From contig NZ_CP093528.1 in NCBI RefSeq assembly GCF_022682305.1, positions 1,439,501-1,503,500 on the forward strand: DNA of 64,000 bases. The letters are read 5' to 3'. Position 1 is the stretch's first letter. Every line of letters begins with the position of its first letter. This DNA is from Shinella zoogloeoides. Lineage in GTDB: Bacteria > Pseudomonadota > Alphaproteobacteria > Rhizobiales > Rhizobiaceae. Shown one piece after another: positions 43,166 through 60,525 of this stretch. Below the pieces are notes generated by a model that worked only from the letters and a program-made list of their open reading frames with translations, was not told where the DNA came from and did not search any database. The translations under genes were made by a program, and so were the position numbers.

Positions 43166-44529
43166 CAGCGATCGCCTTCGGAAAGATTGATGGAAGAGCC
43201 GCCGCCGTGGGCATCACCTGAGCGGACGGCATGGGCCGTGGCCTGGACGGCATGGGTCATGTGCTGGGATCGGCGCATCCGCTGCGCCCAGGCCGGCGGA
43301 CCGCCTGCGTTTGTGGAACCCGCGGCAGCGGCGCCATCACCGGCCGCGTCACCGCCGATCGAGCCCATGGTGGAAGTGCCGCCTGTCGCCTCGAAGGCGG
43401 CCTTGCCGCCAGTGTTGAAGCTTGAGCGCATGCTTTCGGCGGCACGCGATGCGGCGCGGCGCAGGGGCGAGACGGCGGCGCTGCCGCCGGCACGGGCGAC
43501 CCCGCCGAGACCGGAAGCGACGCCGGCCGCGCCGGACTGCCCGGCTGCGCCAAGGCTGTAAGCGGTGGACGCGCCGCCAGCGATCGCAGCACCGCCACGA
43601 GCGGCGGCGGCCGCACCACCGGCCAGCGCAGCGCCACCCGACGCGGCGGCGCCGACGGCGCCAGCGCCGAGCGCGACCATGCCGCCCGCGGCGATGCCCG
43701 TGCCGACCGCTGCGCCGGCGCTGAGCTGGGGACCACCGGAGACGATGCCGCTTGCAATACCGGGACCGAAGATGCCGAGGCCGAGCAGCGACAGCGCGGC
43801 GAGCACGATCGCCATCGCTTCGTCGATTGTCGGATTCTGGCCGCCGAAACCGGATGTGAATTCTGAGAAGAGCGTCGAGCCGATGCCGATGATGACGGCC
43901 AGCACCAGCACCTTGATGCCGGAGGAGATGACGTTGCCGAGCACGCGTTCGGCCATGAAGGCCGACTTGCCGAACAGGCCGAACGGGATCAGCACGAAGC
44001 CGGCGAGCGTCGTCAGCTTGAACTCGATGAGCGTGACGAAGAGCTGAATGGCGAGGATGAAAAAAGCGAGCAGCACCAGCGCCCAGGCCAGGAACATGCA
44101 GGCGATCTGGATGAAGTTCTCGAAGAACGACCAGTAGCCCATGAGGCTGGAGATGGAATCGAGCAGCGGCCGTCCGGCGTCGAGCCCGGTCTGAGCGACC
44201 TTGCCAGGGCGCAAGAGGTCGGCCGTGGTGAACCCGGTGCCGCTAGCCTTCAGGCCGAGGCCGGCGAAGCTCTCGAAAATGATACGGGCGAGGTTGTTCC
44301 AATTGCCGATGATGTAGGCGAACACTCCGACGAACAGCGTCTTCTTCACCAGGCGGGCCATGATGTCGTCGTCGGCGCCCCAGCTCCAGAACAGCGCCGC
44401 CAGCGTCACGTCGATGACGATCAGGGTGGTGGCGATGAAGGCGACTTCGCCGCTGAGTAGCCCGAATCCGCTGTCGATGTAGCGGGTGAAGACCTCAAGA
44501 AAATGGTCAATGACGCCGGTGCCGCCCAT
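43165..44529 (-). CDS. trbL: Conjugal transfer protein TrbL (VirB6-like)
   Basis: A 454-residue polytopic membrane protein. N-terminal helices precede the long membrane region (~20-260), including FVGVFAYIIGNWNNLARIIFESFAGLGLKASG. After residue ~260 comes an Ala/Gly-rich low-complexity stretch (GMVALGAGAVGAAASGGAALAGGAAAAARGGAAIAGGAS), typical of TrbL, then a hydrophilic tail. It forms part of the inner-membrane channel. Four nt downstream of trbK's stop. Confidence 0.93.
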   Translation of the reverse strand: MGGTGVIDHFLEVFTRYIDSGFGLLSGEVAFIATTLIVIDVTLAALFWSWGADDDIMARLVKKTLFVGVFAYIIGNWNNLARIIFESFAGLGLKASGTGFTTADLLRPGKVAQTGLDAGRPLLDSISSLMGYWSFFENFIQIACMFLAWALVLLAFFILAIQLFVTLIEFKLTTLAGFVLIPFGLFGKSAFMAERVLGNVISSGIKVLVLAVIIGIGSTLFSEFTSGFGGQNPTIDEAMAIVLAALSLLGLGIFGPGIASGIVSGGPQLSAGAAVGTGIAAGGMVALGAGAVGAAASGGAALAGGAAAAARGGAAIAGGASTAYSLGAAGQSGAAGVASGLGGVARAGGSAAVSPLRRAASRAAESMRSSFNTGGKAAFEATGGTSTMGSIGGDAAGDGAAAAGSTNAGGPPAWAQRMRRSQHMTHAVQATAHAVRSGDAHGGGSSINLSEGDR

Positions 44530-44533
44530 GATC

Positions 44534-44923
44534 TTATCTCGCCTCGTCGAGCTGCGGCGGCGCGATCGGTGCGGCGGGCTCGATGGCCGGCTGATCGGTG
44601 CGGTCCGATTGGGGTGTGAGAGTGTCTCGCGGCGCTGGCGGGATGTCCGGCAAGCGCTCGGCAGGTCGCGCGCCGGGCGCGAGGAAGCGGTTGCGGTTTT
44701 CGGCCCAGGCCCGCAGGCACGCCGGATCGCGCGGCCCCGCTTCGCCGAGCACCTGGCAGCGGATCAGTTCGTCGCGCAACGGATCGCCCTGCGCTTGGGT
44801 GGTCCGGCCGGACGGCCACGCCTCCCGCACTTCCTCTGTCCGGTTCATCTCGATCGCGGTCGCGGTGATCGCGACGGCCACAAACACGACAGCGCCAAGC
44901 CGGGCGAGCATCTTGCCGTCCAT
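44534..44923 (-). CDS. TrbK-alt-like entry-exclusion/accessory protein
   Basis: A 129-residue protein with an N-terminal membrane anchor (LARLGAVVFVAVAITATAIEM) and a short periplasmic part containing two conserved cysteines (RCQVLGEAGPRDPACLRAWAENRNRF). This matches the putative entry-exclusion protein TrbK-alt of alphaproteobacterial trb operons, not classic TrbK. The C-terminal part is proline-rich. Exclusion of related donor elements is the proposed role; not shown here. Ten nt downstream of trbJ stop. Confidence 0.8.
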   Translation of the reverse strand: MDGKMLARLGAVVFVAVAITATAIEMNRTEEVREAWPSGRTTQAQGDPLRDELIRCQVLGEAGPRDPACLRAWAENRNRFLAPGARPAERLPDIPPAPRDTLTPQSDRTDQPAIEPAAPIAPPQLDEAR

Positions 44924-44933
44924 GGCTGCGCCC

Positions 44934-45704
44934 TCAGTTGCCGTTCGGGAACATGCGGGCGTTGCCGGGCTGATAGCCGGTGCCCGGCGTCAGGAAGCGC
45001 CGGCGCTGTTCGCGGCCCTGTTCGGCCGCTGCCGCCCGTTCGGCCTCGGAGAGGCTCTGTGCGCGGCCATTGGCGGCGACGACGGCGGTGAGATCAGCGA
45101 GCTGCTGTGCTTGCAGGGCGAGAAGCTGATTGCCGGCTTGGGTCGCCTGCAACGCGCCGGTCGCGCCCTGGCTCTGGCCGACCAGCGCCGACATCTCGCT
45201 GCGATTGGTGTCGATGTTGCCGACGACGCCGGCCTGGACACGCATCGCGTCCTGCAAGCCGCCAACCGTGTTCTGCCAGCGCTCGCGCGCTCCCGCGACG
45301 AGCGCCTGATCGGAGGCCGACATCGACGCGTTGCCGTAGGTGGTCTGGAACGCGCGGTCGATCTGCTGGACGTTGAGGGCGATGCCCTGCGCCTCTTGCA
45401 GGAGCTGCTGCGTGCGCTGCACCGACTGCTGAAGCTGTTGGAGCGAGGAATATGGCAGGCTGGCGAGGTTGCGGGCCTGGTTGATCAGCATCGTCGCTTC
45501 GTTCTGAAGCTGGGTGATCTGCTGATTGACCTGCTGGAGGGTGCGCGCCGCCGTCAGGACGTTCTGCGCATAGTTGGTCGGATCGTAGACGATCCATTGC
45601 GCAGCGGCGGGAGTGCTGAGGATCGGCGAAAGCGCGATCGGCGCGGCAAGGAGCGCTGCGGTGATACGCAGTGCAAGCGAGCGGGATTGAGTAGAACGGG
45701 TCAT
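44934..45704 (-). CDS. trbJ: Conjugal transfer protein TrbJ (VirB5-like)
   Basis: A 256-residue exported protein. Signal peptide ends near TPAAAQW; then a coiled-coil-rich, Gln-rich region (AARTLQQVNQQITQLQNEATMLINQARNLASLPYSSLQQLQQSVQRTQQLLQEAQGIALN). It is the minor pilus/tip component. Start ATG 45704 overlaps the trbE stop by ATGA, so it is coupled to trbE; an upstream frame extension is not TrbJ-like. Confidence 0.94.
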   Translation of the reverse strand: MTRSTQSRSLALRITAALLAAPIALSPILSTPAAAQWIVYDPTNYAQNVLTAARTLQQVNQQITQLQNEATMLINQARNLASLPYSSLQQLQQSVQRTQQLLQEAQGIALNVQQIDRAFQTTYGNASMSASDQALVAGARERWQNTVGGLQDAMRVQAGVVGNIDTNRSEMSALVGQSQGATGALQATQAGNQLLALQAQQLADLTAVVAANGRAQSLSEAERAAAAEQGREQRRRFLTPGTGYQPGNARMFPNGN

Positions 45705-48157
45705 GGGCGTGTCTCCGGATCGGTTTGGGGGATGACGTTGGGAAGGTCGGCGACGAGGTCTGCGGCCCAGGCGAGCCGGTTCTCGGCAAGCCATTCGGCA
45801 AGGAAACCATCCGTGCCGCTGCGGGCGTGGATCGCGGCGATCAGCGCCTGGTGCTGCTTCGACGAGGCGGCGCAGAGCGCCAGCGCCACGTCCGACAGGC
45901 CCAGCTCGAAGAGCCGGTTGCCGCGGCGGGACTGGCAGTAGTAATCGCGTTTGGGCATCGCCCGGGCGAGGATCTCGATCTGACGATCGTTCAGCCCGAA
46001 GCGGCGATAGATCGCTGTAATCTGCGGCTCGATCGCGCGTTCGTTGGGGAGCAGGATGCGGGTCTGGCAGCTCTCGATGATAGCCGGCGCGATCGCTGAG
46101 CCGTCGATATCCGAGAGCGACTGCGTAGCGAAGATGACGCTGGCGTTCTTCTTGCGCAGCGTCTTGAGCCACTCACGGAGCTGGCCGGCGAAGCCCTCGT
46201 CGTCGAGCGCGAGCCAGCCTTCATCGACGATCAGCAGCGTCGGCCGACCGTCGAGGCGGTCCTCGATGCGATGGAAGAGATAGGCAAGCACGGCGGCAGC
46301 GGCGCCAGTGCCGATCAGCCCTTCGGTCTCGAAGACCTGAACATTGGCTTCGCCCAGATGCTCGGCCTCGGCGTCGAGCAGCCGACCATAAGGACCGCCG
46401 ACGCAATAGGGCCGCAGCGCCTGTTTCAGGTCGTTGGACTGAAGGAGAACCGACAGGCCTGTCAGCGTTCGCTCGGTGACCGGCGCGGACGCTAGCGAGG
46501 AGAGTGCTGACCAGAGATGCTCCTTCACCTCGGGCGTGACCGGCACGCTCTCGCGCATCAGGATCGCGACCAGCCAATCGGAGGCCCAGGCGCGCTCGGC
46601 GACATCGTCGATGCACGCGAGCGGTTGAAGCGAAACGCTGTCGTCTGAGCCTTCGGTGAGGCCACCGCCAAGATCGTGCCAGTCTCCGCGCATGGCGAGC
46701 GCGGCAGCGCGGATCGATCCGCCAAAGTCAAAGGCGAAAACCTGCGACTGCGGATAGCGCCGGAACTGCAGCGCCATCAGCGCCAGCAGCACCGACTTGC
46801 CGGCGCCCGTTGGCCCGACGATCAGCGTGTGGCCGACATCGCCGACATGGATGGAAAGCCGGAACGGGGTCGAGCCTTCGGTTCTGCCGTAAAGCAGTGG
46901 GGGTGCATCGAAGTGCTCGTCCCGTTCCGGTCCCGCCCACACCGCCGACAGCGGGATCATGTGGGCGAGATTCAAGGTGTTGATCGGCGGCTGCCGGACA
47001 TTGGCGTAGACATGGCCGGGCAGCGAGCCGAGCCAGGCGTCGACCGCGTTGATCGTCTCGGGCATGGCGGTGAAGTCGCGGCCCTGGATGACCTTCTCGA
47101 CCATCCGCAGCTTTTCAGCTGCGATGCGCGGGTCCTCGTCCCAGACGGTGATAGTCGCCGTCACATAGGCCTGGCCCGCATAGTCGGCACCCAGCTCCTG
47201 CAATGCCATGTCGGCGTCGGCGGCCTTGTTGGCCGCATCGGTATCGACCAGCGCAGAGGCCTCGTTGGTCATCACCTCCTTGAGGATGGCGGCGATCGAC
47301 TTGCGCTTGGCGAACCACTGACGCCTGATCTTCGTCAGCAGCTTGGTGGCGTCGGTCTTGTCGAGCAGGACGGCGCGTGTTGACCAGCGATAGGGAAAGG
47401 CCAGCCGGTTCAGCTCGTCGAGGATGCCGGGCGTGGTCGCGGTCGGGAAGCCGACAATGGTGAGGATGCGGACATGTGCGTCGCCGAGCCGGGGTTCGAG
47501 CCCGCCGGTCAGGGGCTGATCGGCCAGCAGCGCATCGAGATACATCGGCGTCTCGGGCACGCGGACGCGGTGCCGCTTCGTCGAGACGGTCGAATGCAGA
47601 TAGGTCAGCGTCTCGCCGTCATCGAGCCAGGCGCATTCCGGCATGAAGGCGTCGATGAGCTGAAGGATGCGATCGGTGCGGTCTGCGAAGCCGCGCAGGA
47701 TCTCGTGCGCATCGACGCCGGCGTGATCGCGACCCTCATAGAGCCAGGTCTCGGCCCGCGCCGCGTCTTCGGCCGGCGGCAGATAGAGGAAGGTGAGGAA
47801 ATAGCTGGACTCGAAATGCGCGCCGGCTTCCTCGAAGTCGGCCTTGCGTTCGGCGTCGACGAGGGCGGATGCGCTGTCGGCGAACATGCTTGCCGGATAG
47901 GTGGCGGCGCCATGGCGCTGCGCCTCGACGAAGATCGCCCAGCCGGAGCCGAGGCGACGAAAGGCGTTGTTGAGCCGGGCGGCGACGGCGACCAGCTCGG
48001 CCGGCACGGCGCTGTCGAGGTCCGGGCCGCGGAAGCGCGCGGTGCGCTGCAGGCTGCCGTCCTTGTTCAGCACGATCCCTTCGCCAACCAGTGCGACCCA
48101 GGGAAGGAAGTCGGCGAGCCGGGTGTTGCGGTTGCGATATTCGGCGAGGTTCATCAT
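45701..48157 (-). CDS. trbE: Conjugal transfer ATPase TrbE (VirB4-like)
   Basis: An 818-residue VirB4 ATPase. The N-terminal TrbE domain (~1-400) is followed by the P-loop GPTGAGKS at 448-455 and a Walker B-like strand LLIVDEGWLALDD near residue 640-660, with the following conserved segment TQSLSDIDGSAIAPAIIESCQTRILLPN. It powers pilus assembly and substrate transfer. Full length for the family (~815). Gap of 12 nt from trbD. Confidence 0.96.
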   Translation of the reverse strand: MMNLAEYRNRNTRLADFLPWVALVGEGIVLNKDGSLQRTARFRGPDLDSAVPAELVAVAARLNNAFRRLGSGWAIFVEAQRHGAATYPASMFADSASALVDAERKADFEEAGAHFESSYFLTFLYLPPAEDAARAETWLYEGRDHAGVDAHEILRGFADRTDRILQLIDAFMPECAWLDDGETLTYLHSTVSTKRHRVRVPETPMYLDALLADQPLTGGLEPRLGDAHVRILTIVGFPTATTPGILDELNRLAFPYRWSTRAVLLDKTDATKLLTKIRRQWFAKRKSIAAILKEVMTNEASALVDTDAANKAADADMALQELGADYAGQAYVTATITVWDEDPRIAAEKLRMVEKVIQGRDFTAMPETINAVDAWLGSLPGHVYANVRQPPINTLNLAHMIPLSAVWAGPERDEHFDAPPLLYGRTEGSTPFRLSIHVGDVGHTLIVGPTGAGKSVLLALMALQFRRYPQSQVFAFDFGGSIRAAALAMRGDWHDLGGGLTEGSDDSVSLQPLACIDDVAERAWASDWLVAILMRESVPVTPEVKEHLWSALSSLASAPVTERTLTGLSVLLQSNDLKQALRPYCVGGPYGRLLDAEAEHLGEANVQVFETEGLIGTGAAAAVLAYLFHRIEDRLDGRPTLLIVDEGWLALDDEGFAGQLREWLKTLRKKNASVIFATQSLSDIDGSAIAPAIIESCQTRILLPNERAIEPQITAIYRRFGLNDRQIEILARAMPKRDYYCQSRRGNRLFELGLSDVALALCAASSKQHQALIAAIHARSGTDGFLAEWLAENRLAWAADLVADLPNVIPQTDPETRP

Positions 48158-48169
48158 CGTCGTTCCTCC

Positions 48170-48451
48170 TCAGACCGACAGGTGGCCGGGGATGCGCAGA
48201 TGCTTGCGCACGACGTCGACGAACTGCGGATCGCGCTTGGCGGCCCAGACGGCCGCGAAGTGGCCAAGAGCCCAGAGGCCCAGGCCGACCAGCCAGAGGC
48301 GAAGACCAAGGCCGAGGGCTGCCGCAAGCGTGCCGTTGAGAATGGCGAGCGAGCGCGGCGCGCCGCCGAGCAGGATGTGCTCGGTCAGCGCCCGGTGAAC
48401 TGGAACCGAGAAACCCGGCAGTTCGCCGCCATGGTCAGCGCCGTTGGCCAT
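48170..48451 (-). CDS. trbD: Conjugal transfer protein TrbD (VirB3-like)
   Basis: A 93-residue protein: GFSVPVHRALTEHILLGGAPRSLAILNGTLAAALGLGLRLWLVGLGLWALGHFAAVWAAKRDPQFVDVVRKHLRIPGHLSV. It is the VirB3 fold with the PVHRALTEHILLGG entry and two membrane helices. The ATG 48451 start shares its base with the trbC stop, indicating coupling. Upstream codons in this frame are open but unrelated. Confidence 0.94.
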   Translation of the reverse strand: MANGADHGGELPGFSVPVHRALTEHILLGGAPRSLAILNGTLAAALGLGLRLWLVGLGLWALGHFAAVWAAKRDPQFVDVVRKHLRIPGHLSV

Positions 48452-48783
48452 CAGACGAGCGCCCCGCCGCCGAACGAGAAGAACGACAGGAAGAAGCTGG
48501 ACGCGGCGAAGGCGATCGACAGGCCGAAGACGATCTGGATCAGCTTGCGGGCACCGCCGGACGTGTCGCCGAAGGCGAGCGTCAGGCCGGTGATGATGAT
48601 GATCATCACGGCGATGATCTTGGCGACGGGCCCCTCGATCGATTCGAGGATGGACTGCAGCGGCGCTTCCCACGGCATGGAGGAACCGGACGCGTGCGCG
48701 GCGGGCGCCATCGCCAATGAGACGAATGTGACGGATACCGCTGTCGCGATATGGCGGCGGATGCGCAGGGCGTGCTTGATCAT
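48451..48783 (-). CDS. trbC: Conjugal transfer pilin TrbC (VirB2-like)
   Basis: A 110-residue pre-pilin with a signal peptide (SVTFVSLAMAPAAHASG) and two membrane helices (AKIIAVMIIIITGLTLAFGDTSGGARKLIQIVFGLSIAFAASSFFLSFF). This is VirB2/TrbC topology; TraF (55529-56074) is the likely maturation peptidase that would cyclise it, as in RP4. Start ATG 48783 overlaps the trbB stop by ATGA. Confidence 0.94.
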   Translation of the reverse strand: MIKHALRIRRHIATAVSVTFVSLAMAPAAHASGSSMPWEAPLQSILESIEGPVAKIIAVMIIIITGLTLAFGDTSGGARKLIQIVFGLSIAFAASSFFLSFFSFGGGALV

Positions 48784-49763
48784 GACGGGTCTCCTGTGAG
48801 GGGCTGGGTTGCGGGGGTGACGCGGTAGTCGCCGTCGGAGCCGAGGCCCTCAATGCGGGCGAGTTCGGCGAGGCGGCGCGATGCGCCGCGGCCGGAGAGC
48901 ACGGCGATGAGATCAATCGTCTCCGCGATCAGGGCGCGCGGGACGGTGACGACGGCTTCCTGAATGAGCTGCTCCATGCGGCGGAGCGCGCCGATGGCGG
49001 TGCCGGCGTGGATGGTGCCGACGCCGCCGGGATGGCCGGTGCCCCAGGCCTTCAGCAGATCGAGCGCCTCGGCACCTCGGACCTCGCCGATCGGAATGCG
49101 GTCGGGGCGCAGGCGGAGCGAGGAGCGGACGAGATCGGAGAGCGAAGCGACGCCGTCCTTTGTCCGCATGGCGACGAGGTTCGGCGCGGCGCATTGCAGT
49201 TCGCGCGTATCCTCGATCAGGACGACGCGATCCGAGGTCTTGGCGACCTCGGCGAGCAGCGCGTTGGTAAGGGTCGTCTTACCGGTGGATGTGCCGCCGG
49301 CGACGAGGATGTTGCGGCGGTCTGCGACAGCCTGGCGTAGCGTCTCAGCCTGACCTGCGGCCATGATGCCGGCGGCAACATAGTCGTCGAGCGTGAACAC
49401 GGCGACGGCGGGTTTGCGGATCGCGAAGGCGGGCGCGGACACAACGGGCGGCAGCAGCCCCTCGAACCGCTCTCCCGTTTCGGGCAGCTCGGCCGAGACG
49501 CGCGGGGCGCCGGGATGAACCTCGGCGCCGACATGGTGCGCGACGAGACGGATGATCCGCTCGCCGTCCGAAGGCGACAGCAGCTCACCCGTATCGGAAA
49601 GCCCTTCGGAAAGCCGGTCGACCCAGAGCCGCCCATCGGGATTGAGCATCACCTCGACGATCGCAGGATCTTCCAGAAAGCGGGCGATCGCCGGCCCGAG
49701 GGCCGTGCGCAGCATGCGGGCACCGCGAAGGAGCGCTTCCGATTTCTGGTGAGTTGCCGCCAC
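48780..49763 (-). CDS. trbB: Conjugal transfer ATPase TrbB (VirB11-like)
   Basis: A 327-residue hexameric traffic ATPase. The P-loop is GGTSTGKT (156-163); the Asp box is [12 protein letters not shown], the Walker B-region is [45 protein letters not shown], and the C-terminus is [16 protein letters not shown]. It starts with GTG at 49763 and has no strong upstream alternative. First gene of the trb operon: a gap of 169 nt separates it from the CopG-like gene. Confidence 0.95.
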
Positions 49764-49932
49764 GTCGTCCCCGTTCTCTTGCGGGACCGCGACACGCGGC
49801 CCTGGATCGGGGATGAGTAGAAGAGGCAGAAATTAGGGCCTGACAACAACCGTGCTGTGGTCGTCGTACTGTGGCGTACAAATACAGGGAAACGGCGGAA
49901 CGCAGGAATACTTGTGGTAGGCGCGGTCGTAA
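49764..49932 (-). promoter_or_regulatory. Intergenic region before trbB, likely trb promoter
   Basis: A 169-nt gap within the otherwise tightly packed cluster. On the minus strand TTGTCA (49835-49830) is followed after 17 nt by CTTCTA, a possible sigma-70 promoter; a GTAC-N6-GTAC repeat (49868-49881) could be a regulator site. These are pattern-based and weak. Confidence 0.4.
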
Positions 49933-50367
49933 TTAATCCGCGTCGCGCGCGGGCGCGATGTCTTCCGAAATCTCCTGGCGAAGCTTCGGCCCGTGAGCGA
50001 GTCGCCGGCCGAGAGCGGTGACGAACGCCTCGTAGCGCTCGCCTGCTTTCGAGCGCGCCGCAGCCTGTGCGGGCTCCGGCAGCGGCGGGTTTGTCGTCAG
50101 CCAGAAGCGGATGAACACGGCCAGCGTTTCGACGCTGATTCCGAGATCGCGCTCCATCCGCGCCATTCGCCGGTCGATCTGGTCGAGCCGCTTCGTCGTC
50201 GCAGCCTCCTGCCGTTCGGCAGCATCAGGCGACAGAAAGGAGGCGATGCCGGCTTCCGCGATCAGCGAGAGGGATTGATCACGACGGCCCGCGTGCGCGG
50301 CGAGCGCCTTCATGACCTCCGGTTCGAGATATACAGACAGGCGCTGCTTTTTGGGGGGCTTCGCCAT
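49933..50367 (-). CDS. CopG-like ribbon-helix-helix regulator
   Basis: A 144-residue protein. N-terminal RHH: RLSVYLEPEVMKALAAHAGRRDQSLSLIAEAGIASFLSP. A helical region follows (RRMARMERDLGISVETLAVFIRFWLTTNPPLPEP). These CopG-like proteins precede trbB in this class of transfer operon and may control the tra/trb genes by analogy with TraD/MobC-like RHH factors. AGGAGG five nt from ATG 50367 sets the start. Eight nt downstream of the traG stop. Confidence 0.85.
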   Translation of the reverse strand: MAKPPKKQRLSVYLEPEVMKALAAHAGRRDQSLSLIAEAGIASFLSPDAAERQEAATTKRLDQIDRRMARMERDLGISVETLAVFIRFWLTTNPPLPEPAQAAARSKAGERYEAFVTALGRRLAHGPKLRQEISEDIAPARDAD

Positions 50368-50375
50368 TGTGCCTC

Positions 50376-52361
50376 CTAAAGATCGATGCCGTCGCCGGGA
50401 TCAAGCGACGCCTGCCGCGCCACCTGGCGCATCGTCTGGTTCATGCGCGAGAGGCGCGCGGCGTCCTCGTCGGCGTCGTCGCGGGGATCGATCTCAAACT
50501 CGTTTTCGATGGGTTGCTTTGGCTCGACGGGTTTTGAGCGACTCAACTCCGGCTGGTGCCGGCGCTCGGAGTCGGTCGTATCCTCGTCCTCCGATCCGTC
50601 GCCGCTAGCGGCCGCTGCCATCACCGGTGTCGCCGGAAGAGGCAGCGTGCTCCAGTCGTCCGGTCGTGCAGTGGTCGGCTTGACGAGATTCGGCGGCGGC
50701 AGGATGCGCTCCTGAAACCGGCGATCCTCATAATATCGCGCCTTCTTCGCGCGGATCGGCGGGGTGCCCGCCACCATGACGATTTCGTCGGATGGCGGAA
50801 GCTGCATGATCTCGCCGGGCGTCATCAGTTGCCGGGCTGTCTCCGAGCGCGAGACCATCATGTGACCGAGCCAGGGCGACAGGCGATGACCGGCATAGTT
50901 CTTCATCGCGCGCATCTCGGTCGCGGTGCCGAGCGCGTCGGAGACACGCTTGGCGGTCCGCTCGTCATTGGTCGCGAAGCTGACGCGGACATGGCAGTTG
51001 TCGAGGATCGAGTTGTTCGGTCCGTAGGCCTTCTCGATCTGGTTCAGCGACTGGGCGATGAGGAAGGCTTTGAGACCGTAGCCGGCCATGAAGGCAAGCG
51101 CGCTCTCAAAGAAGTCGAGGCGGCCGAGGGCCGGGAATTCGTCGAGCATCAGGAGAAGCCGGTGGCGGTTGCCCTTCGCGTTCAGATCCTCCGTGAGCCG
51201 CCGGCCGATCTGATTGAGGATCAGACGGATCAGCGGCTTGGTCCGGTTGATGTCGGATGGCGGCACAACGAGGTAGAGGGTGGTCGGATGCTTGCCGCCG
51301 ACGATATCGACGATGCGCCAGTCACAGCGGCGTGTGACCTCGGCGACGACAGGATCGCGATAGAGGCCGAGGAACGACATCGCGGTGGACAGCACGCCGG
51401 ACCGCTCGTTGTCGGATTTGTTCAGCAGCTCGCGAGCGGCGCTAGCGATCACCGGATGCGGGCCAGCCTCGCCGAGATGGGCGGTCCTCATCATGGCGGC
51501 GAGCGTCGAGTCGATCGGCCGCTTCGGGTCGGAGAGGAAGGCGGCGACGCCAGCCAGGGTCTTGTCGGCCTCGGCGTAGAGGACGTGCAGGATGGCGCCG
51601 ACCAGCAGCGCGTGGCTGGTTTTTTCCCAGTGGTTCCGCTTCTCCAGCGAGCCTTCTGGGTCGACCAGGATATCGGCGATGTTCTGGACGTCGCGGACCT
51701 CCCACTCGCCGCGGCGGACCTCGAGCAGAGGATTGTAGGCGGCCGACTTCGTGTTCGTCGGATCGAACAGCAGCACGCGGCCGTGCCGGGATCGAAAGCC
51801 CGCCGTCAGCGTCCAGTTCTCCCCCTTGATGTCGTGGACGATGGCCGAGCCCGGCCAGGTCAGCAGTGACGGCACGACCAGGCCGACGCCCTTGCCGGAT
51901 CGCGTGGGAGCGAAGCACAGCACATGCTCGGGACCATCGTGACGGAGGTAGTCGCGCTCGAACTTGCCCAGGATCACGCCATCCGCGCCCAGGAGGCCCG
52001 CGGCACTCACTTCGCGAGCATCGGCCCATCGGGCGGAGCCGAAGGTCTCGGCGTTCTTGGCTTCGCGCGCCCGCCACACGGACATGCCGATCGCGACGGC
52101 GATGGAAATGAAACCGCCCGACGCGGCGATATAGGCGCCTTCGATGAAGATCGGCGGAGCATAGGCATCGTAGAAATACCACCACCAGAAAAAGGCTGGC
52201 GGATAGTAGATCGGCCAACCGGCCAGTTCGAACCACGGAAGTCCAAGCTGTGGCTGGAAGCCGAGCCGATAGGCCGTCCATTGCGTCGCCGCCCAGGTTG
52301 TCATCAGCACGATCAGGACGACGGTGAGGATCTGGCCCCAGAGGATTTTGGTCGCCGACAT
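50376..52361 (-). CDS. traG: Type IV coupling protein TraG (VirD4-like)
   Basis: A 661-residue coupling ATPase that hands relaxosome DNA to the channel. Two or three N-terminal membrane helices (LWGQILTVVLIVLMTTWAA, YYPPAFFWWWYFY, IAASGGFISIAVAIGM) precede the P-loop APTRSGKG (151-158), LLLMLDEFPALGRLDFFESALAFMAGYGLKAFLIAQSLNQIEKAYGPNNS with the Walker B Asp-Glu, and an acidic tail. Start ATG 52361 is 26 nt after the relaxase stop; an upstream extension in frame is not conserved. Confidence 0.96.
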   Translation of the reverse strand: MSATKILWGQILTVVLIVLMTTWAATQWTAYRLGFQPQLGLPWFELAGWPIYYPPAFFWWWYFYDAYAPPIFIEGAYIAASGGFISIAVAIGMSVWRAREAKNAETFGSARWADAREVSAAGLLGADGVILGKFERDYLRHDGPEHVLCFAPTRSGKGVGLVVPSLLTWPGSAIVHDIKGENWTLTAGFRSRHGRVLLFDPTNTKSAAYNPLLEVRRGEWEVRDVQNIADILVDPEGSLEKRNHWEKTSHALLVGAILHVLYAEADKTLAGVAAFLSDPKRPIDSTLAAMMRTAHLGEAGPHPVIASAARELLNKSDNERSGVLSTAMSFLGLYRDPVVAEVTRRCDWRIVDIVGGKHPTTLYLVVPPSDINRTKPLIRLILNQIGRRLTEDLNAKGNRHRLLLMLDEFPALGRLDFFESALAFMAGYGLKAFLIAQSLNQIEKAYGPNNSILDNCHVRVSFATNDERTAKRVSDALGTATEMRAMKNYAGHRLSPWLGHMMVSRSETARQLMTPGEIMQLPPSDEIVMVAGTPPIRAKKARYYEDRRFQERILPPPNLVKPTTARPDDWSTLPLPATPVMAAAASGDGSEDEDTTDSERRHQPELSRSKPVEPKQPIENEFEIDPRDDADEDAARLSRMNQTMRQVARQASLDPGDGIDL

Positions 52362-52386
52362 GGCGGGCACTCCTTTCTTGATTGGG

Positions 52387-54126
52387 CTACATGCCGAGGC
52401 CGCGGTTGCGGCCGAAGCTCCAGTCGACGCCACCGGCGCCGTGCGACACGCCGGAGACGTGCTGACCGACCTGGCGTTCGAGGGACGGCGACCAGGGCAC
52501 GAGCTGGAATCCGAGGCCGTCATCGATCATGGCGAAGCGGCCAGACGCGAGCGCGAAGCGCTGCCGGTAGGTGCCCGCCACATACTCGCCCGTTGCGGCC
52601 TTCGAGAATTGTCGGCCGGTCTCGGCCGCGAGCTTCTCGCCAAGGGCGTCGACCTCGCGCTGCCGCAGCATGTCGATCAGCCCGGGTGAGAAGCTGACGC
52701 CCCGTGTTTGTCGCTCGGCGAGACCTTGACCAACGAGATGGTCGGCACGGCGGTCCATAGCCTGGCGCACCTCGGCGCCGAAGCCGCCGCCGCCGAGCGG
52801 AACGGGCTCACGGGCGATCGCCTGCCGGTCGAGCCAGGTCGCGCCGGTTGCATGGACTTGCCTCTCGATGTCGAGATCGGAGCGGATGGCGAGCGCGACC
52901 CGTCTGCGTCCCTGCGCGTCGTCGAATTTGCGCAGCTCGACGATCGAGCCCGGCGCGCTATCGCCGGCCGCGTCGAGGTCGGGCAGCTTGATATGATGGG
53001 TCCGTCCGTCCGTGCCATCGACCACGGCGTAGGCGGTGCCCTTCAGCTCATCGTCGAGACCACGATCGACCAGCCGGCCAACGACAGGATCGTTGAGGCT
53101 CTCGCCGGCGAGCACATAGCTGGCGGCGCCGCGCTCGATACCGCGTTCCGTCAGGCCGCGGTGAATGCGTTTGATGATGTCGCCGCGCTCGCCCAGTTCG
53201 CGCAGCGTCGCCTCGGCATTCTCCGATACGACCCATTGGCCGGGGCCGACCTGATCCGCAAGGCCGAGCGTCTCCAGCTTCCGCAGCCGGCCGACCTTCA
53301 TCGCGTGGAACTCGTCGGGCTGGCGATCGGGATGCGGGGCGAGATCGACGACGCCGGTGCGATAGGCGTCGCGCGAAAGCTGGCGGTCGAGATTGGTCCA
53401 GCGTTCCGACTCGATCTGGCGTTCGAGATTGCGGCGTATCTCGTGATCGGTGCGCGGCCCCAACTCTTGGGTGGCGAGATCCTGCGCGCGGGCGCGCATG
53501 CCTTCCTTGATGTAGTCGCGCGAGATGACGAGGTCCTGGCCGTCATCGGTGCGCCCGCGCAGGATGATGTGGACGTGCGGATTATCCGTGTTCCAGTGAT
53601 CGACACCGACCCAGTCGAGCTTGGTGCCGAGATCCTTTTCCATCTGCCCCATCAGGTCGCGGGCATAGGTCTTGAGGTCGGACATCTCCGTCGCGTCCTC
53701 GGGCGAGACGATGAACCGGAAATGATGCCGATCATCCTGGGTCCGCTCGGCGAAGGCCTTGGGATCGGCGTCCTCGGTCTCGGGACCGAACAGCCGCGCC
53801 TTCTCCCCATCCCGGGTGACACCCTCGCGCCGCAGGTAGCTAAGGTGGGCGGAAAGCGGCGTGGCCCGCGCGCTATGACGGACGACGCGCGTCTTGATTA
53901 CGGTGTTGCGCGATCGGCTGGTGAGCAGCCGGTTGGCCTGCACCGTCGCGCGCTGGCCGCGCCCGAAACGCGAGCGGTTGCCCGAACTGATCGTGCCGGA
54001 CCGCGAGACGCTGCCGCCGGCGCGCTGCGCAGCCGCCAGCGCTTGGGCGATGAAGGGTCGCGCCTGCTGCGCGCGGGTCGAGCGGATGCGGCCTGGCCGG
54101 ATGCGGAAATCGTCCTCGCTGCTCAT
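52387..54126 (-). CDS. DUF3363-family relaxase (mobilisation nuclease)
   Basis: A 579-residue relaxase. The three-histidine metal site is in DHWNTDNPHVHIILRG (H177, H184, H186). N-terminal VKTRVVRHSARATPLSAHLSYLRREGVTRDGEKARLFG is the DUF3363 signature; the remainder (~280-579) is the DUF3363 C-part. Catalytic tyrosine candidates lie in the N-terminal region (Y97, Y154). It nicks oriT and pilots DNA through TraG. The start overlaps the small upstream gene's stop by ATGA. No oriT was recognised in the window. Confidence 0.92.
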   Translation of the reverse strand: MSSEDDFRIRPGRIRSTRAQQARPFIAQALAAAQRAGGSVSRSGTISSGNRSRFGRGQRATVQANRLLTSRSRNTVIKTRVVRHSARATPLSAHLSYLRREGVTRDGEKARLFGPETEDADPKAFAERTQDDRHHFRFIVSPEDATEMSDLKTYARDLMGQMEKDLGTKLDWVGVDHWNTDNPHVHIILRGRTDDGQDLVISRDYIKEGMRARAQDLATQELGPRTDHEIRRNLERQIESERWTNLDRQLSRDAYRTGVVDLAPHPDRQPDEFHAMKVGRLRKLETLGLADQVGPGQWVVSENAEATLRELGERGDIIKRIHRGLTERGIERGAASYVLAGESLNDPVVGRLVDRGLDDELKGTAYAVVDGTDGRTHHIKLPDLDAAGDSAPGSIVELRKFDDAQGRRRVALAIRSDLDIERQVHATGATWLDRQAIAREPVPLGGGGFGAEVRQAMDRRADHLVGQGLAERQTRGVSFSPGLIDMLRQREVDALGEKLAAETGRQFSKAATGEYVAGTYRQRFALASGRFAMIDDGLGFQLVPWSPSLERQVGQHVSGVSHGAGGVDWSFGRNRGLGM

Positions 54127-54374
54127 GGCCGAGGCCCCGCACATCGCGCAATCGCGCGGTAATCCTTGGCGAAATGGCGGATGCGCAGGCTGCGCCGATC
54201 AGGCGCACCTCGCGCCAATGCGCCATAAGTCCCTGAAAACACACGACCGCACCAAGCCGCACCTCGCGCGCTTTTATCTCGCCATCGTGCGGTTGTGTTG
54301 CCTGCTCTCCCTCCTCGGACCGCCATCCTTCCGCCAGAGCACGCTATTCCACGAAATACTGCGAGCACCGTCAT
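54123..54374 (-). CDS. Small Arg-rich protein coupled between transglycosylase and relaxase genes
   Basis: Eighty-three codons (MTVLAVFRGIACSGGRMAVRGGRAGN... CAGPRP). Its ATG overlaps the stop of the transglycosylase gene as ATGA (54371-54374), and its TGA overlaps the relaxase ATG as ATGA (54123-54126). Two such overlaps mean that it is unlikely to be a chance reading frame. The product is basic, rich in Arg, Gly and Ala, without a membrane helix. I recognise no family. Its codon use is plausible, but an Arg-rich frame can also be an artefact of GC-rich DNA, so confidence is moderate. Confidence 0.5.
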   Translation of the reverse strand: MTVLAVFRGIACSGGRMAVRGGRAGNTTARWRDKSARGAAWCGRVFSGTYGALARGAPDRRSLRIRHFAKDYRAIARCAGPRP

Positions 54375-55528: not shown

Positions 55529-56074
55529 TCACCGCGTCGGCGCGCGCCAGACGAAGCGGTCATCGCCGTCCTCGTCGGTGTAGAGGGGGGTGGCCCGGCC
55601 GATGACCGAGCTGGTGGGGAGCGGGCCGAAGTAGCGGCCGTCGAGGCTGTCGCGGACCTGCCAGTTCATCAGGAACAGCTCGTCGTCGGCGATGACGCGA
55701 CACCCCTGCCAGATCGGCAGTTCGCGGCCCCGACGATCACGGTCGAGCGCGTCGCCGATGGCGTGGCCGTCGACGGTGATCGTGTGGCCCGATCGGCACA
55801 CACGTTGACCGGGCAGACCCGCGACCCGCTTCAGCAGCGGCACGCCGCGTGGCAAATATCCGCCATCGGCAAGGAACGTGGCGATCGGCTCCGGTGCCGC
55901 TACGGCGACGAGGTCGGTCGCTTCCAATACGTCGCTGGCGCTGATCGCATAGAGGCCGATCGGCGTGCTCGCGGAGGCATTCCAGATCAGCTTTGGCGCG
56001 AAGGAGATGATCGACAGGACGCCAATCAGCATCACCGCGAAGTACGTCGTCATGACGTATCCAATGCGGCTCAT
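55529..56074 (-). CDS. traF: TraF-like S26 signal peptidase/pilin maturation peptidase
   Basis: A 181-residue S26-family peptidase with one N-terminal membrane helix (YFAVMLIGVLSIISFAP). Nucleophile S36 in NASASTPIGLY and general base K82 in LLKRVAGLPGQ form the Ser-Lys dyad. In RP4, TraF removes and cyclises the TrbC pilin; the same role is likely here. Start ATG 56074 overlaps the DUF2840 stop by ATGA. Confidence 0.92.
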   Translation of the reverse strand: MSRIGYVMTTYFAVMLIGVLSIISFAPKLIWNASASTPIGLYAISASDVLEATDLVAVAAPEPIATFLADGGYLPRGVPLLKRVAGLPGQRVCRSGHTITVDGHAIGDALDRDRRGRELPIWQGCRVIADDELFLMNWQVRDSLDGRYFGPLPTSSVIGRATPLYTDEDGDDRFVWRAPTR

Positions 56075-56589: not shown

Positions 56590-56840
56590 CGCGGCTCTCC
56601 TTCGCTGGTGGGGAACTCGCGCTCGAACAGCGCGCGCAGCATGTCGGCGACCGTCTGTCCGCGCTGGAAGGCGGCAATCTTGATCCGGCCGCGCATGTCG
56701 GCGGTGACGTCGATCGTCAGCCTGGCGGTAAATTCGGCGGCGGGGTCCGCGCGCGGCGATGGACGGTCTGGCGCCTTGATCCAGCTTTCCGGATCGGCAG
56801 GCCGGGTCGCAAAACTGCGTTTCGAGGACCGCTCGCTCAT
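56586..56840 (-). CDS. Small RHH-like partner of ParA
   Basis: An 84-residue protein with a C-terminal RHH-like segment (AAEFTARLTIDVTADMRGRIKIAAFQRGQTVADMLRALFEREF) and a disordered N-terminus with SKRSFATRPADPESWIKAPDRP. Position directly after parA (4-nt overlap) and the ParG-like fold suggest the centromere-binding partner of ParA in partition; this is inferred. No ParB of the usual type is present. Confidence 0.8.
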   Translation of the reverse strand: MSERSSKRSFATRPADPESWIKAPDRPSPRADPAAEFTARLTIDVTADMRGRIKIAAFQRGQTVADMLRALFEREFPTSEGEPR

Positions 56841-57475
56841 GTCGCGATCCTCGTGACTTCGGCGGCGAGCGCGGCAATCTCCCGCGCGGCGGGCGATGTA
56901 TCGTCCTGCTCGGCCGCGAGCCGTCCGGTCTGCACGACATCGGCGAAGGCGATGCGCTGACCGATGGTGGTGAGGAGCGGCGGGGGATCGTGTTCAGCGA
57001 GCGTCTCAGCGGTTTCGCGGGCGAGGATCGTGCGGGCGGCACAGCGGTTCAGTACGAACCGCGCCTTGAGGTCCGGTCGATAGATCCGCGCTTCGCTGAG
57101 CAGCGTCAGCATCTCGGCAGACGCCCAGCCGTCGAGCGGTGACGGCTGCACCGGGATCAGTACAAGATCGGCAGCCAGCAGCGCCGAACGCATCAGACCG
57201 GCGACACGCGGCGGTCCGTCGATGACGACATGATCGACATCGCGCGCCAGTTCCGGCGCTTCGCGGTGGAGCGTGTCGCGGGCCAGGCCGACAACACCGA
57301 ACAGCCGCTCCAATCCCTCACGGCCGCGCTGCTGTGACCAGTCGAGCGCCGAGCCCTGTGGGTCGGCGTCGATCAGCGTGACGCGCTGCCCATGCCGAGC
57401 CCATTCACCGGCGAGATGGAGGGCGAGCGTCGTCTTTCCGACGCCGCCCTTCTGGTTGAGGAACGCGACGATCAT
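56837..57475 (-). CDS. parA: ParA-family ATPase (partition)
   Basis: A 212-residue short ParA/Soj-like ATPase: LNQKGGVGKTTLALHLAGEWA (deviant Walker A K9-T16), IDADPQGSALDWSQQ, VVIDGPPRVAGLMRSALLAADLVLIPVQPSPLDGWASAEML. Without an N-terminal HTH it is a type Ib ParA, as in ParF/ParG systems, fitting the small RHH gene behind it. It probably segregates or stabilises the element. Palindromes and iteron-like repeats lie in the 208-nt gap upstream. Confidence 0.94.
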   Translation of the reverse strand: MIVAFLNQKGGVGKTTLALHLAGEWARHGQRVTLIDADPQGSALDWSQQRGREGLERLFGVVGLARDTLHREAPELARDVDHVVIDGPPRVAGLMRSALLAADLVLIPVQPSPLDGWASAEMLTLLSEARIYRPDLKARFVLNRCAARTILARETAETLAEHDPPPLLTTIGQRIAFADVVQTGRLAAEQDDTSPAAREIAALAAEVTRIAT

Positions 57476-57683: not shown

Positions 57684-58571
57684 TCACAGCTTATCCCCAG
57701 GTCGAGTTGTCGAGCGGCGACGGCGGCGCGGGATGCCGAGCGCGTCGGGATCGGTGGGTACGAAGAACAGGATTTCGGGGCCGCCGAGGCACTGCTCGAT
57801 GGTCAGGCGATAGCCCGGCAGCGGCTGGCGGCGCACGATGTCGCGCAGGTCGTAGGCGAAATGCTTGAGCGGCGAGAGACTGCCGGACTTGGCGTGGAGA
57901 TGCGGGAAGTCGAAGCTCCAGCCGTGTTCCTGCTTGCCGCCGTGCTTGCGCACGAGGCGGTAGAGCCAGCGCTCCAGACCGCCGGTCAGCCTGAAATAGT
58001 TGCGGTCGATCGTCAGGACGAGCGCGTCGTCAAGGACCGCGCCGTAGAACCAGTCCGGCACGATCAGTTCGAGCCCGAGCGGGCGGCCGCGGTGATCGGC
58101 TCGCTCCTTCCATTCATTGATCCAGGAGAAGCGGTGCATCCGCCGCTCGGTCGGCTGGCGGATTGAGGTCGCTATGGTGGTGGACTGGAGGCGGTCGAGC
58201 GCGGCCTTCAGCCGGTCGTAATCGCGCAGCGAGACACCGCGTCCAATGAAGTTCAGAATCTCGTAAGGCGTGGTCGCCATCAGGCGTGACGGGCGCAGGC
58301 CGACGTCACGGGCCTCGACGATTTGTGAGGCCGCCCAGATCAGAACATCAGCGTCCCAGATCGTCGCCATGCCGTGCTCGGGCACGGCTTCGACACGGAT
58401 TTTCACCGAACCCGCCTTGAAGTCGATCGGCGTCAGGCGCTTCGACTTGGCAAGCGAGAAGAACGGATAGGCCATGAGGTCCTGCGCGTCGCGCGGCGCG
58501 AGATCGCCGGACAGCGCCCGGAACAGATCGAGCTGCGCACGCTCGTCGTGCTGTGTGTGACGGGACGACAT
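57684..58571 (-). CDS. repA: Replication initiator protein RepA
   Basis: A 295-residue RepA_C-type initiator: RDAQDLMAYPFFSLAKSKRLTPIDFKAGSVKIRVEAVPEHGMATIWDADVLIWAASQIVEARDVGL, then RPSRLMATTPYEILNFIGRGVSLRDYDRLKAALDRLQSTTIATSIRQPTERRMHRFSWINEWKE and GLELIVPDWFYGAVLDDALVLTIDRNYFRLTGGLERWLYRLVRKHGGKQEHGWSFDFPHLHAKSGSLSPLKHFAYDLRDIV. It would start plasmid-like replication at the iterons; in ICEs such RepA gives transient replication after excision. Twelve nt downstream of the AlpA-like stop. Confidence 0.94.
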   Translation of the reverse strand: MSSRHTQHDERAQLDLFRALSGDLAPRDAQDLMAYPFFSLAKSKRLTPIDFKAGSVKIRVEAVPEHGMATIWDADVLIWAASQIVEARDVGLRPSRLMATTPYEILNFIGRGVSLRDYDRLKAALDRLQSTTIATSIRQPTERRMHRFSWINEWKERADHRGRPLGLELIVPDWFYGAVLDDALVLTIDRNYFRLTGGLERWLYRLVRKHGGKQEHGWSFDFPHLHAKSGSLSPLKHFAYDLRDIVRRQPLPGYRLTIEQCLGGPEILFFVPTDPDALGIPRRRRRSTTRPGDKL

Positions 58572-58582: not shown

Positions 58583-58864
58583 TCAGCGCGGCTGGCGGCC
58601 GGCGAAGCGGCGATCCGACGGCTCCTGCCGCTTGGCGGGGAGCACCGTGCCGCGCGGATCAGAGGTCGAACTGACGAGGCCGCGATCGGCCCACGTCTGG
58701 AGATCCTCTATGGCGTAGACGACTCGGCCGCCGAGCTTCCTGTAAGCCGGGCCGGTGCCGTAGGTGCGGTGCTTCTCCAGTGTGCGCTCGGACAGTCCGA
58801 GGAAGCGAGCGGCCTCCTGCGTGCGCAGGTAGCGTGGCGGGATGCCGGCGGTCGTATCGGCCAT
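58583..58864 (-). CDS. AlpA/excisionase-type HTH protein (RdfS-like candidate)
   Basis: A 93-residue protein with a MerR-type excisionase HTH: PPRYLRTQEAARFLGLSERTLEKHRTYGTGPAYRKLGGRVVYAIEDLQTWADRGLVSSTSD, and a basic tail (KRQEPSDRRFAGRQPR). GGAGG seven nt before ATG 58864 supports the start. In ICEMlSymR7A the recombination directionality factor RdfS has this fold, is activated by FseA and drives excision; here the FseA-like gene is immediately upstream (139-nt gap). RdfS identity is inferred from context, and no integrase is in the window. Confidence 0.82.
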   Translation of the reverse strand: MADTTAGIPPRYLRTQEAARFLGLSERTLEKHRTYGTGPAYRKLGGRVVYAIEDLQTWADRGLVSSTSDPRGTVLPAKRQEPSDRRFAGRQPR

Positions 58865-58960
58865 TGTCGAGCCTCCGTGGTCTCATCGGGGGCCGCTGCC
58901 GTCAGGCGGCGGTTCGAGAGCACGGTGGCGTGAAGACGGTGGGTCGGACGATGTCGGAGA

Positions 58961-58971
58961 TAGGAATCTAG
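58961..58971. promoter_or_regulatory. Repeated element upstream of the AlpA-like gene
   Basis: TAGGAATCTAG here matches 57545-57555 exactly. It lies 97 nt upstream of the AlpA-like start, within the 139-nt gap that an FseA-like activator would be expected to control. Confidence 0.45.
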
Positions 58972-59002
58972 TTTCGACACGCCGCAGGCGGTCGATGGCG
59001 GG

Positions 59003-59762
59003 CTATGATCGGCGGGGTCGGCGCAGGAGGGAGCGGTAGCCGCCTTCAACGAGTTTCACGCCGTCGCGCGCCAGCCGGATCGTGACTTCGCGCAGCGCGT
59101 CCCCGGCCCAGGAGGCGGCGTCGATTTTATGACCAGGGAACAGAACCTCCCCGATCGATCGATATGTCGCGCCGGCACGACGTCCATCGACCGCACGCAG
59201 CATTTGGCGCGCGCGCTCGCGGCGCTGAGGCGTCATTCGAGGGTCGTTCGGGACGCGCTTGCCTTTGATCGCGCTCCAGAACCGGGTCAGCGCGGTCTGT
59301 CGATCCGGTGTGAGGTCATCGAACATGACCATCGCCGCGAGCGGGTTCTCGTCCTGCGGGTCCGCGAGCGTGACGTCATACTGCTCGCCGCAGATATCGA
59401 GCCTGAGATGAGCAGGGTCGTGCTGGAATATGGTACGGAGGCGTAACTCGTCGGCAGTGATGGAAAACCCTTCAGGGCGCGGACCTGCGGCGAACATTAT
59501 TGCCGACGGATCGACTTGAGGGGTCCAAAAAATCTGCTGGGCATGAGCCGCGATGAGAGGGTCGGCGCCGAAATCGCAACCCCCATAGGTTCGCAAATTC
59601 TTCGGCCGTTTCGAGTGAGAGTCGGCCGCTGGACACAAGCTCCTGATAGGCTTTCCGGTAGTCGGGGTTTCGGCGCAGAAATTCCCAGGCAAGGTTACCC
59701 GGAGTTAGATTGTCGATATAGTTGTAGGCGGTCTCAGACCGCCAACTTTCATCTTCGGACAT
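59003..59762 (-). CDS. fseA: FseA-like activator made by +1 ribosomal frameshifting (DUF6499-like N-part + DUF2285 C-part)
   Basis: Two overlapping frames encode one protein of 252 residues. Frame 1 (from ATG 59762) reads WRSETAYNYIDNLTPGNLAWEFLRRNPDYRKAYQELV and EEFANLWGLRF; frame 2 continues GADPLIAAHAQQIFWTP and ends with a DUF2285 domain (MTPQRRERARQMLRAVDGRRAGATYRSIGEVLFPG, YRSLLRR). The junction is CGA TTT CGG on the mRNA sense strand (59576-59568): slipping from UUU to UUC puts GGC next. In ICEMlSymR7A msi172-msi171 fuse this way at a conserved UUU-C motif to give FseA, which activates the excisionase gene rdfS. Without slippage frame 1 gives 96 residues. A plain frameshift mutation would look identical from sequence alone. 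Confidence 0.8.
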
Positions 59763-59881: not shown

Positions 59882-60157
59882 TCAATGGAGGCGGGGGCCG
59901 AGAAGCTCGCAAAAGCCGTTCTCGGTCATCCATTTCGCGCGAGCGAGGTGTGCGGCATGAATTTTCGCTGCACGGTCGGGGTCCGCTGCGGGATCGAGGC
60001 CGAAGAGAAGCTCGACGACTTCCTCCCAGGTCGCGCCGTCCGCCTCGGCGTCGAGCAGCCTCAGGTACAACTTCAGATGCGCCTGGTCATAGGCGGTGAG
60101 CGCCGCGCCGAGCGGCGGTTCGTCCAGATATTCTGCGTTGGTCACGATGAGCCCCAC
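59882..60157 (-). CDS. Short DUF2285-family protein (QseM-like candidate antiactivator)
   Basis: A 91-residue acidic protein: LTAYDQAHLKLYLRLLDAEADGATWEEVVELLFGLDPAADPDRAAKIHAAHLARAKWMTENGFCELL. It resembles the DUF2285 domain in the FseA-like protein (LRAVDGRRAGATYRSIGEVLFPG pattern). In ICEMlSymR7A the small DUF2285 protein QseM binds and blocks TraR and FseA. Start uncertain (GTG 60157 or GTG 60145); no clear ribosome-binding site, and R7A qseM is reported to be leaderless. No TraR/TraI is present in this window. Confidence 0.7.
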   Translation of the reverse strand: MGLIVTNAEYLDEPPLGAALTAYDQAHLKLYLRLLDAEADGATWEEVVELLFGLDPAADPDRAAKIHAAHLARAKWMTENGFCELLGPRLH

Positions 60158-60271: not shown

Positions 60272-60514
60272 TCAAGGGTTGTCCTTGTCACCAACCAGCA
60301 TCACTCCCACGCTTTGGCCGGAGTTGAGCAGGACGATGCCACCGCCTTCAAAGGCTCGACGGACCTGATCGCGTGTTGATTCGTACACCTCGAGCCCGCT
60401 GTCGGATTCAAGGCGCTTCAACGCGGTCAGTGATACCCGGGCCTTGTCAGCGAGCGTCTCCTGTGTCCAGCCGAGCAACGCGCGTGCGGCCCGTGATTGT
60501 CGGGCGGTGATCAT
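60272..60514 (-). CDS. XRE-family regulator (QseC-like candidate)
   Basis: An 80-residue Cro/CI-type protein: TARQSRAARALLGWTQETLADKARVSLTALKRLESDSGLEVYESTRDQVRRAFEGGGIVLLNSGQSVGVML. The wHTH is in residues ~3-60. The ATG 60514 lies inside a perfect 20-bp palindrome (60506-60525), which can serve as its own operator. In ICEMlSymR7A QseC, a small DNA-binding protein, controls qseM; this gene is a candidate equivalent from size and position, not by proof. GGGAGG is about 10 nt before the start. Confidence 0.75.
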   Translation of the reverse strand: MITARQSRAARALLGWTQETLADKARVSLTALKRLESDSGLEVYESTRDQVRRAFEGGGIVLLNSGQSVGVMLVGDKDNP

Positions 60515-60525
60515 GCATGATCACC
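60506..60525. promoter_or_regulatory. Perfect 20-bp palindrome over the XRE start codon
   Basis: GGTGATCATGCATGATCACC is its own reverse complement. It covers the start codon and part of the ribosome-binding region of the XRE gene at 60272-60514. Likely operator for autorepression; it would also form an mRNA hairpin occluding the start. Confidence 0.7.

Follow-up and report, generated by a model that had tools for sequence, protein, structure and literature searches.

A conserved fseA-like gene in two frames, with a predicted +1 slip site, on an ICEMlSymR7A-like conjugative element of Shinella zoogloeoides

The closest described counterpart of the gene analyzed here is FseA of ICEMlSymR7A from Mesorhizobium japonicum, in which the same DUF6499 and DUF2285 parts are encoded in two frames (msi172-msi171) and joined by +1 programmed frameshifting; our account of it draws on the main text of Jowsey 2023 (PMC10359603) and on parts of PMC11963761. 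As described there, +1 slippage at a low rate limits FseA, QseM restrains it further, and FseA activates rdfS together with the genes that follow. The main text of Jowsey 2023 (PMC10359603) terms the R7A event '+1 PRF', reports 4709 FseA homologues across the proteobacteria, about 61% of which need +1 frameshifting, remarks on the UGGGGG at WGL, and suggests that a pause would offer QseM the moment to catch the nascent DUF6499 domain; 'CGA' and 'UUU' are absent from this main text as whole words. The +1 shift in msi172-msi171 is also covered in the text of a 2016 review (PMC5009743). RovC of Yersinia (PDB 6XZ5), after which Pfam names PF10074, is a structural relative of FseA according to the main text of PMC10359603; a single-sequence search of the C part of our gene against the PDB chains gave no match at E 1.

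We analyzed a stretch of 64,000 nucleotides from S. zoogloeoides (contig NZ_CP093528.1, positions 1,439,501 to 1,503,500; hereafter the window). On its minus strand, an ORF of 96 aa, reaching from an ATG at 59762 to 59472, can be read directly from the letters. The decisive segment, GAA TTT GCG AAC CTA TGG GGG TTG CGA TTT CGG CGC CGA CCC, contains the slip codon TTT (59573-59571, minus strand), after which C at 59570 comes next; the +1 frame starts at 59569 with GGC GCC GAC CCC (G-A-D-P) and ends with a stop codon at 59005-59003. A one-base +1 slip at TTT yields W-G-L-R-F-G-A-D-P and a protein of 64 + 188 = 252 aa, and the base sum over the gene is 192 + 1 + 564 + 3 = 760. Pfam assigns the N part, whose zero-frame ORF carries the motif NLAWEFLRRN, to PF20109 (DUF6499, 1e-21) and the C part in the +1 frame to PF10074 (DUF2285, 1.1e-31). 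An earlier reading of the sequence only had placed a DUF6499-like N part and a DUF2285 C part in different frames, and both its coordinates and its domains agree with ours. The UUU-C slip site and the continuity of WGLRF with GADP that it proposed are likewise borne out by the letters, and the single-frame homologue L148 uses TTC to spell W-G-L-R-F-G-A-D-P over the same join within a single frame. Ahead of the slip, the C frame is open as well (first start TTG 59692), and since the two frames overlap by about 220 bases, we placed the slip at UUU on the basis of the conserved pattern and not of the ORF limits. The zero-frame tail after the slip, 32 aa here, has no fixed length among 152 loci (2 to 236 aa, median 31).

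In our judgment, this is very probably a working fseA gene of an ICEMlSymR7A-like element, read by +1 frameshifting, which activates an rdfS-like gene and transfer genes and is restrained by QseM. The locus shares with R7A the UGGGGG-coded WGL beside the slip, a candidate FseA box before the rdfS-like gene and a QseM-like gene next to fseA (main text of PMC10359603; parts of PMC11963761). The features of the region are compiled in Table 1.

Table 1. Location of the fseA gene, its slip site and the accompanying genes of the element (window coordinates).
Feature	Coordinates	Strand	Basis
fseA part 1 up to the slip codon, DUF6499/PF20109, AWEFLRRN motif, 64 codons	59571..59762	-	Pfam 1e-21
Zero-frame ORF, 96 aa, product without slip	59472..59762	-	ORF reading
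Predicted recoding site TGG GGG TTG CGA (SD-like UGGGGGU, then CGA), slip codon UUU, C	59570..59585	-	Letters, conservation, codon use
fseA part 2, +1 frame: middle region and DUF2285/PF10074, 188 aa and stop	59003..59569	-	Pfam 1.1e-31
qseM-like gene, lone DUF2285, pI 4.7, net charge about -8	59882..60157	-	Pfam; 7UQT match
XRE-type regulator, possible QseC counterpart (role suggested by position)	60272..60514	-	HTH_3
rdfS-like excisionase gene, HTH_17, PF12728 (named from domain and position)	58583..58864	-	Pfam
Candidate FseA box TGTCGA-N16-CCGACA, 28 bp, between fseA and rdfS-like gene	58952..58979	-	Motif comparison
Replication initiator protein A (RPA, PF10134)	57684..58571	-	Pfam
ParA-type partition ATPase	56837..57475	-	Pfam
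TraF-like S26 peptidase	55529..56074	-	Pfam
Relaxase candidate, DUF3363, RlxS-like by position	52387..54144	-	Pfam; 'VirD2 family relaxase' at same place in pCHQ1
Mating-pair and coupling genes: TraG, TrbB-type ATPase, VirB3, TrbE-type ATPase, TrbL, VirB8, CagX/TrbG, TrbI	40219..52523	-	Pfam
ORF without family inside the mating-pair block	49933-50367	-	Pfam

The qseM-like protein matches the sequence of QseM (PDB 7UQT) with an E value of 1.3e-18 and has no DUF6499, while its PF10074 match is borderline (6e-6; 27.2 bits against a cut-off of 26.4, and 25.6 in a second search). Like QseM (7UQT), it is a lone acidic DUF2285 protein whose gene adjoins a helix-turn-helix gene, and by homology it would bind FseA. 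FseA is basic over its last 105 residues (pI 11.5), and the opposite charges of the two proteins are in line with the description of R7A in the main text of PMC10359603. Upstream sequence of 900 bases or more is available for 111 of the +1 loci; within these 900 bases, 64 loci have a lone DUF2285 gene on the same strand and 13 more have one on the opposite strand. Over the start of the XRE gene lies a near-perfect 28-base palindrome (60501-60528), a candidate operator.

The candidate FseA box consists of two inverted hexamers at a spacing of 16 bp and in this respect fits the published FseA box (spacing 15-16 bp), but it is separated from the ATG of the rdfS-like gene by 88-93 bases, compared with 62-67 in the published FseA logo (main text of PMC10359603). 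Several relatives possess TGTCGA-N15/16-TCGACA at the same place, and the box of the window matches 11 of the 12 positions of the consensus taken from relatives. When 145 of the 147 unique loci were scanned, 32 of the 65 with an rdfS-like gene behind fseA scored 11-12 of 12, and the other 33 scored 7-9. None of the 80 loci without a recognised rdfS-like gene reached 11 or 12 and one scored 10; the rdfS-like test is a short motif, and these 80 negatives may include diverged rdfS genes. In block-shuffled sequence, a score of 11 was reached in 0.08%. The scan found no box of this type at the other five fseA copies of this genome.

Judged by gene content, the DNA that hosts fseA is an ICEMlSymR7A-like conjugative element, with a predicted transfer region that lies entirely on the minus strand. 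It follows the R7A-like order of trb genes, traG, relaxase, msi107-like transglycosylase, traF and rdfS, the transglycosylase being located together with DUF736 between the relaxase candidate and the TraF-like peptidase. As far as the records show, the same gene order is present on pCHQ1 of Sphingobium indicum and on two Rhodopseudomonas replicons. The arrangement departs from that of R7A, which we know by description only, in that fseA is positioned directly between the qseM-like and rdfS-like genes, with repA and parA next. Window positions 12972-60562 (47.6 kb) are 99.97% identical in the genome G903, which counts as another species of the genus by the rule of the collection (one genome per species); an identity of this degree over 47.6 kb points to a recent transfer, so that the element has likely moved between species not long ago. 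Past an insert in this genome, homology to G903 sets in again and persists throughout the remainder of the 40 kb adjoining the window on its right.

This insert, about 11.5 kb long (60562 to 72086, the numbering of the window being continued to its right), sets in 48 bases 5' of the XRE start and cuts the XRE-qseM-fseA genes off from the sequence that normally precedes them. An IS110 transposase is encoded within it (61347-62423), and two promoter-like sites in it, recognised as consensus matches only, face the XRE-qseM-fseA genes (60652-60623 and 60911-60882). The edge of the insert (60560-61081) has a perfect direct repeat of 263 bases (60560-60822 and 60819-61081), which holds two XRE-like ORFs with differing ends, as judged by eye.

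The genome as a whole contains seven PF03472 genes and one PF00765 gene for LuxR-type receptors and AHL synthases, but none of them lies in the stretch shared with G903 (C1:1452472-1541892), which in this respect differs from R7A. The suggestion of the sequence-only reading that this element is regulated in the same way as R7A is thus upheld for the frameshift layout, the QseM-like gene and the rdfS box, as far as sequence can tell, but not for the LuxR/LuxI part of the circuit.

What FseA controls deserves separate consideration, since, even with a real frameshift, the activator might serve a purpose different from excision, such as driving plasmid-like replication and transfer genes, while rdfS would have been retained for a different function. 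Similar modules occur on conjugative plasmids on which rdfS has been kept, as reported in parts of PMC8627217; in the element studied here, repA and parA follow rdfS, the closest tyrosine integrase lies at a distance of about 200 kb, and no right end of the element could be located. However, a large serine recombinase (C1:1537342) is encoded about 38 kb to the right of fseA, in the part common to G903, and we regard a function other than excision as unlikely.

Considerably less probable still is the synthesis of two separate proteins, in which UGGGGG would be a ribosome-binding site and the DUF2285 half would be started independently. The UGGGGG does resemble a Shine-Dalgarno (SD) run, DUF2285-only proteins such as QseM exist, and starts further inside the second part are possible. 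Yet 139 of the 147 unique loci possess no ATG, GTG or TTG in the +1 frame from -8 to +18 bases of the first T of the slip, and the conserved protein sequence crosses the join that L148 maintains within one frame. We therefore consider this explanation very improbable and retain the reading of one protein made through a +1 shift.

A two-frame gene might also be a once single-frame gene that was split by a plain frameshift mutation or by a sequencing error. Two frames in one gene often reflect decay, and single-frame homologues do exist: from 163 fetched loci, the removal of 2 that lacked the N part, 10 that lacked the C part and 7 duplicates left 144 distinct loci with both domains, of which 112 have the +1 layout, 30 are single-frame and 2 are arranged otherwise (L085, L122). 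Furthermore, the copy on pBAL398.2 of Rhodopseudomonas sp. BAL398 (L233, 89% identical) keeps the slip site but is broken further downstream in its second part. Against a mutation stands the recurrence of the same shift at the same codon in all six fseA copies of this genome, in 15 of 15 further copies of the genus and in 25 of 26 named relatives, and since relatives have the same shift, this explanation is refuted for the family; for the gene itself, we give it next to no credence.

The agreeing named relatives include a Hyphomicrobium MAG (98%), Bosea sp. CRIB-10 (97%) and Sphingomonas sp. QA11 (89%); the 26 overlap the other locus set in at least three cases (L213, L223 and L228, identical with L057, L051 and L038). 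The sole exception, L218, lacks this pattern at the join, and its match begins only at residue 7. The sequence-only reading had proposed an FseA-type +1 gene and had named single-frame copies in close relatives as the result that would speak for a mutation; all seven relatives at 89-98% keep two frames, and the proposal gains support from the domains, the conserved site, the codon bias described below and a selection pattern that switches frame at the slip. This pattern emerged from a comparison with the copy in G106, a member of another genus with 96% identity over 44 kb. The dN/dS values of 0.18 (N part) and 0.21 (C part) indicate purifying selection on both sides of the slip, and over the 32 codons that follow it, 9 changes affect third positions of the +1 frame, 6 affect first positions and none affects a second position.

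The S. zoogloeoides genome (5.14 Mb, 7 contigs) contains six PF20109 copies and has twelve matches to PF10074, of which six are long and six are short. Its six fseA-qseM modules are located on C1 near 461, 981, 1499, 3355, 3556 and 4261 kb and belong to no fewer than four distinct branches of the fseA tree; six PF20109 copies are also present in G887 of the same genus. With the own genome counted each time, PF20109 is carried by 8 of 21 genomes of the genus, 45 of 151 of the family, 25 of 385 in a class sample and 43 of 398 in a phylum sample. The same-family set, drawn from 78 rows, comprises 75 loci with both domains (72 with the +1 layout, 2 in frame, 1 otherwise), and 66 of these, 4 duplicates included, provide full junctions, i.e., matches to the N and C models that both extend to the model end at the join, with TTT not being a condition. 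Every one of the 66 (62 distinct) joins with exactly one extra base and TTT; the models were built from 17 of them, cut at the join, and 49 lie outside this training set. In the fseA tree (140 rows, quick method), about 10 changes between +1 and single-frame layouts are found, 4 of which are forced by well-supported branches, while several joins are long-branch pairs.

The pattern TGG-NNN-NNN-NNN-TTT is present in 109 of the 112 +1 loci, with C (97) or T (12) as the next base. L107, which has one codon extra, L119, which is disturbed downstream, and L096 depart from it; L096 has TGT for TTT as well as AGG for GGG and is perhaps a decayed copy. Two consecutive Phe codons (CAG TTT TTT CGT), and hence a longer T run at the slip position, were seen in L049 and L060.

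Codon choice at the +1 sites differs strongly from that elsewhere in the same genes: Gly is encoded by GGG in 73 of 108 sites (12% elsewhere), Leu by TTG in 62 of 94 (10%), Arg by CGA in 59 of 65 (10%) and Phe by TTT in 109 of 109 (30%), the last count being conditioned on TTT by the filter. While the Fisher values for this contrast treat related loci as independent, 64 cluster representatives (60% identity) give the same picture, with GGG in 42/63, TTG in 33/54, CGA in 30/33 and TTT in 64/64. This synonymous bias is a further argument against a chance mutation. The 25 single-frame homologues with a recognisable W-G have GGG in 4 cases and GGGGGT in none, and they use CGA for 0 of 13 Arg, TTG for 8 of 22 Leu and TTT in no case. 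Because of these 8 TTG codons and because Phe occurs there in only 3 of the 25, this group is a weak control for TTG and TTT; the contrast between +1 and single-frame sites is strong for CGA and GGG and weaker for TTG and TTT. Calculated pairing with the anti-SD sequence averages -8.2 kcal/mol at the site (147 loci) and -5.8 in the 25 single-frame homologues; over the surrounding 90 offsets it averages -1.25 kcal/mol, and the minimum coincides exactly with the GGGGG run. The SD-like run and CGA may have a role in slippage. That RNA polymerase slips on the five-G run present in most +1 sites, leaving part of the mRNA one base shorter, is extremely unlikely, as runs of five are short for polymerase slippage, loss of one G gives W-G-C-D-F-G-A-D-P and not the W-G-L-R-F of the homologues, and GGC, GGT or GGA interrupt the run in 35 of 108 sites at which the TTT pattern stays.

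The prfB gene is read through a +1 frameshift with an internal SD sequence 3 nt from the slip codon. The fseA site resembles it in having an SD-like run just before a +1 slip codon, but the distance from GGGGG to the slip codon is 6 nt, and there is neither a stop at the shift site nor an autoregulation logic. A search of 23 related sequences, picked from relatives of the copy in the window, revealed no conserved downstream stem-loop that might serve as a stimulator (z +0.5 downstream, +0.3 upstream). A stem spanning the slip site (z -2.8), in which the G run forms five pairs with the conserved codons for D-P, was set aside, since both partners are conserved for other reasons. As a tentative and rather doubtful extension, we propose a composite slip signal in which the SD-like GGGGGU 6 nt before UUU and CGA in the E site, both kept against the codon habits, would work together; given a spacing unlike that of prfB, the run would act as a pause more than through strain on the P-site tRNA. 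The abundant unslipped product of 96 aa might then mop up QseM, and the frameshift rate would set the levels of both the activator and the free antiactivator.

By analogy with R7A, the switch would work as follows. Ribosomes would start at 59762, read the DUF6499 part, and meet the SD-like GGGGGU, CGA and then UUU. Most would stay in the zero frame and stop 32 codons on; in a minority, tRNA-Phe would slip from UUU to the overlapping UUC, and continued +1 reading would give the 252-aa activator. Its dimer would bind the box at 58952-58979 and activate the rdfS-like gene along with the transfer genes that follow. The QseM-like protein, whose gene lies upstream of fseA, would restrain the activator by binding to the DUF6499 part. 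Slippage and its low rate, DNA binding, activation, antiactivation and excision are all attributed here on the model of R7A.

The gene is a well-conserved example of a published control device that is already known from Jowsey 2023, and the two-frame arrangement itself is not new. Relative to the main text of PMC10359603, supplements aside, two points appear to be additions: the codon contrast between +1 and single-frame sites (TTG, CGA) and the presence of six modules in a single genome. Genes of this kind are broken up in gene tables: in the plasmid table, which is incomplete by its own note, H3 has the DUF2285 half alone, and H2 has a separate gene for each half. Single-frame homologues, in which the GGGGGU and CGA seen at +1 sites are not maintained, provide a natural control, and the six modules of this genome make cross-talk of FseA and QseM between elements examinable in one strain. 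The two-frame gene of S. zoogloeoides is a point of control that is conserved and under selection, and the element to which it belongs has very likely passed from one species to another in recent times.
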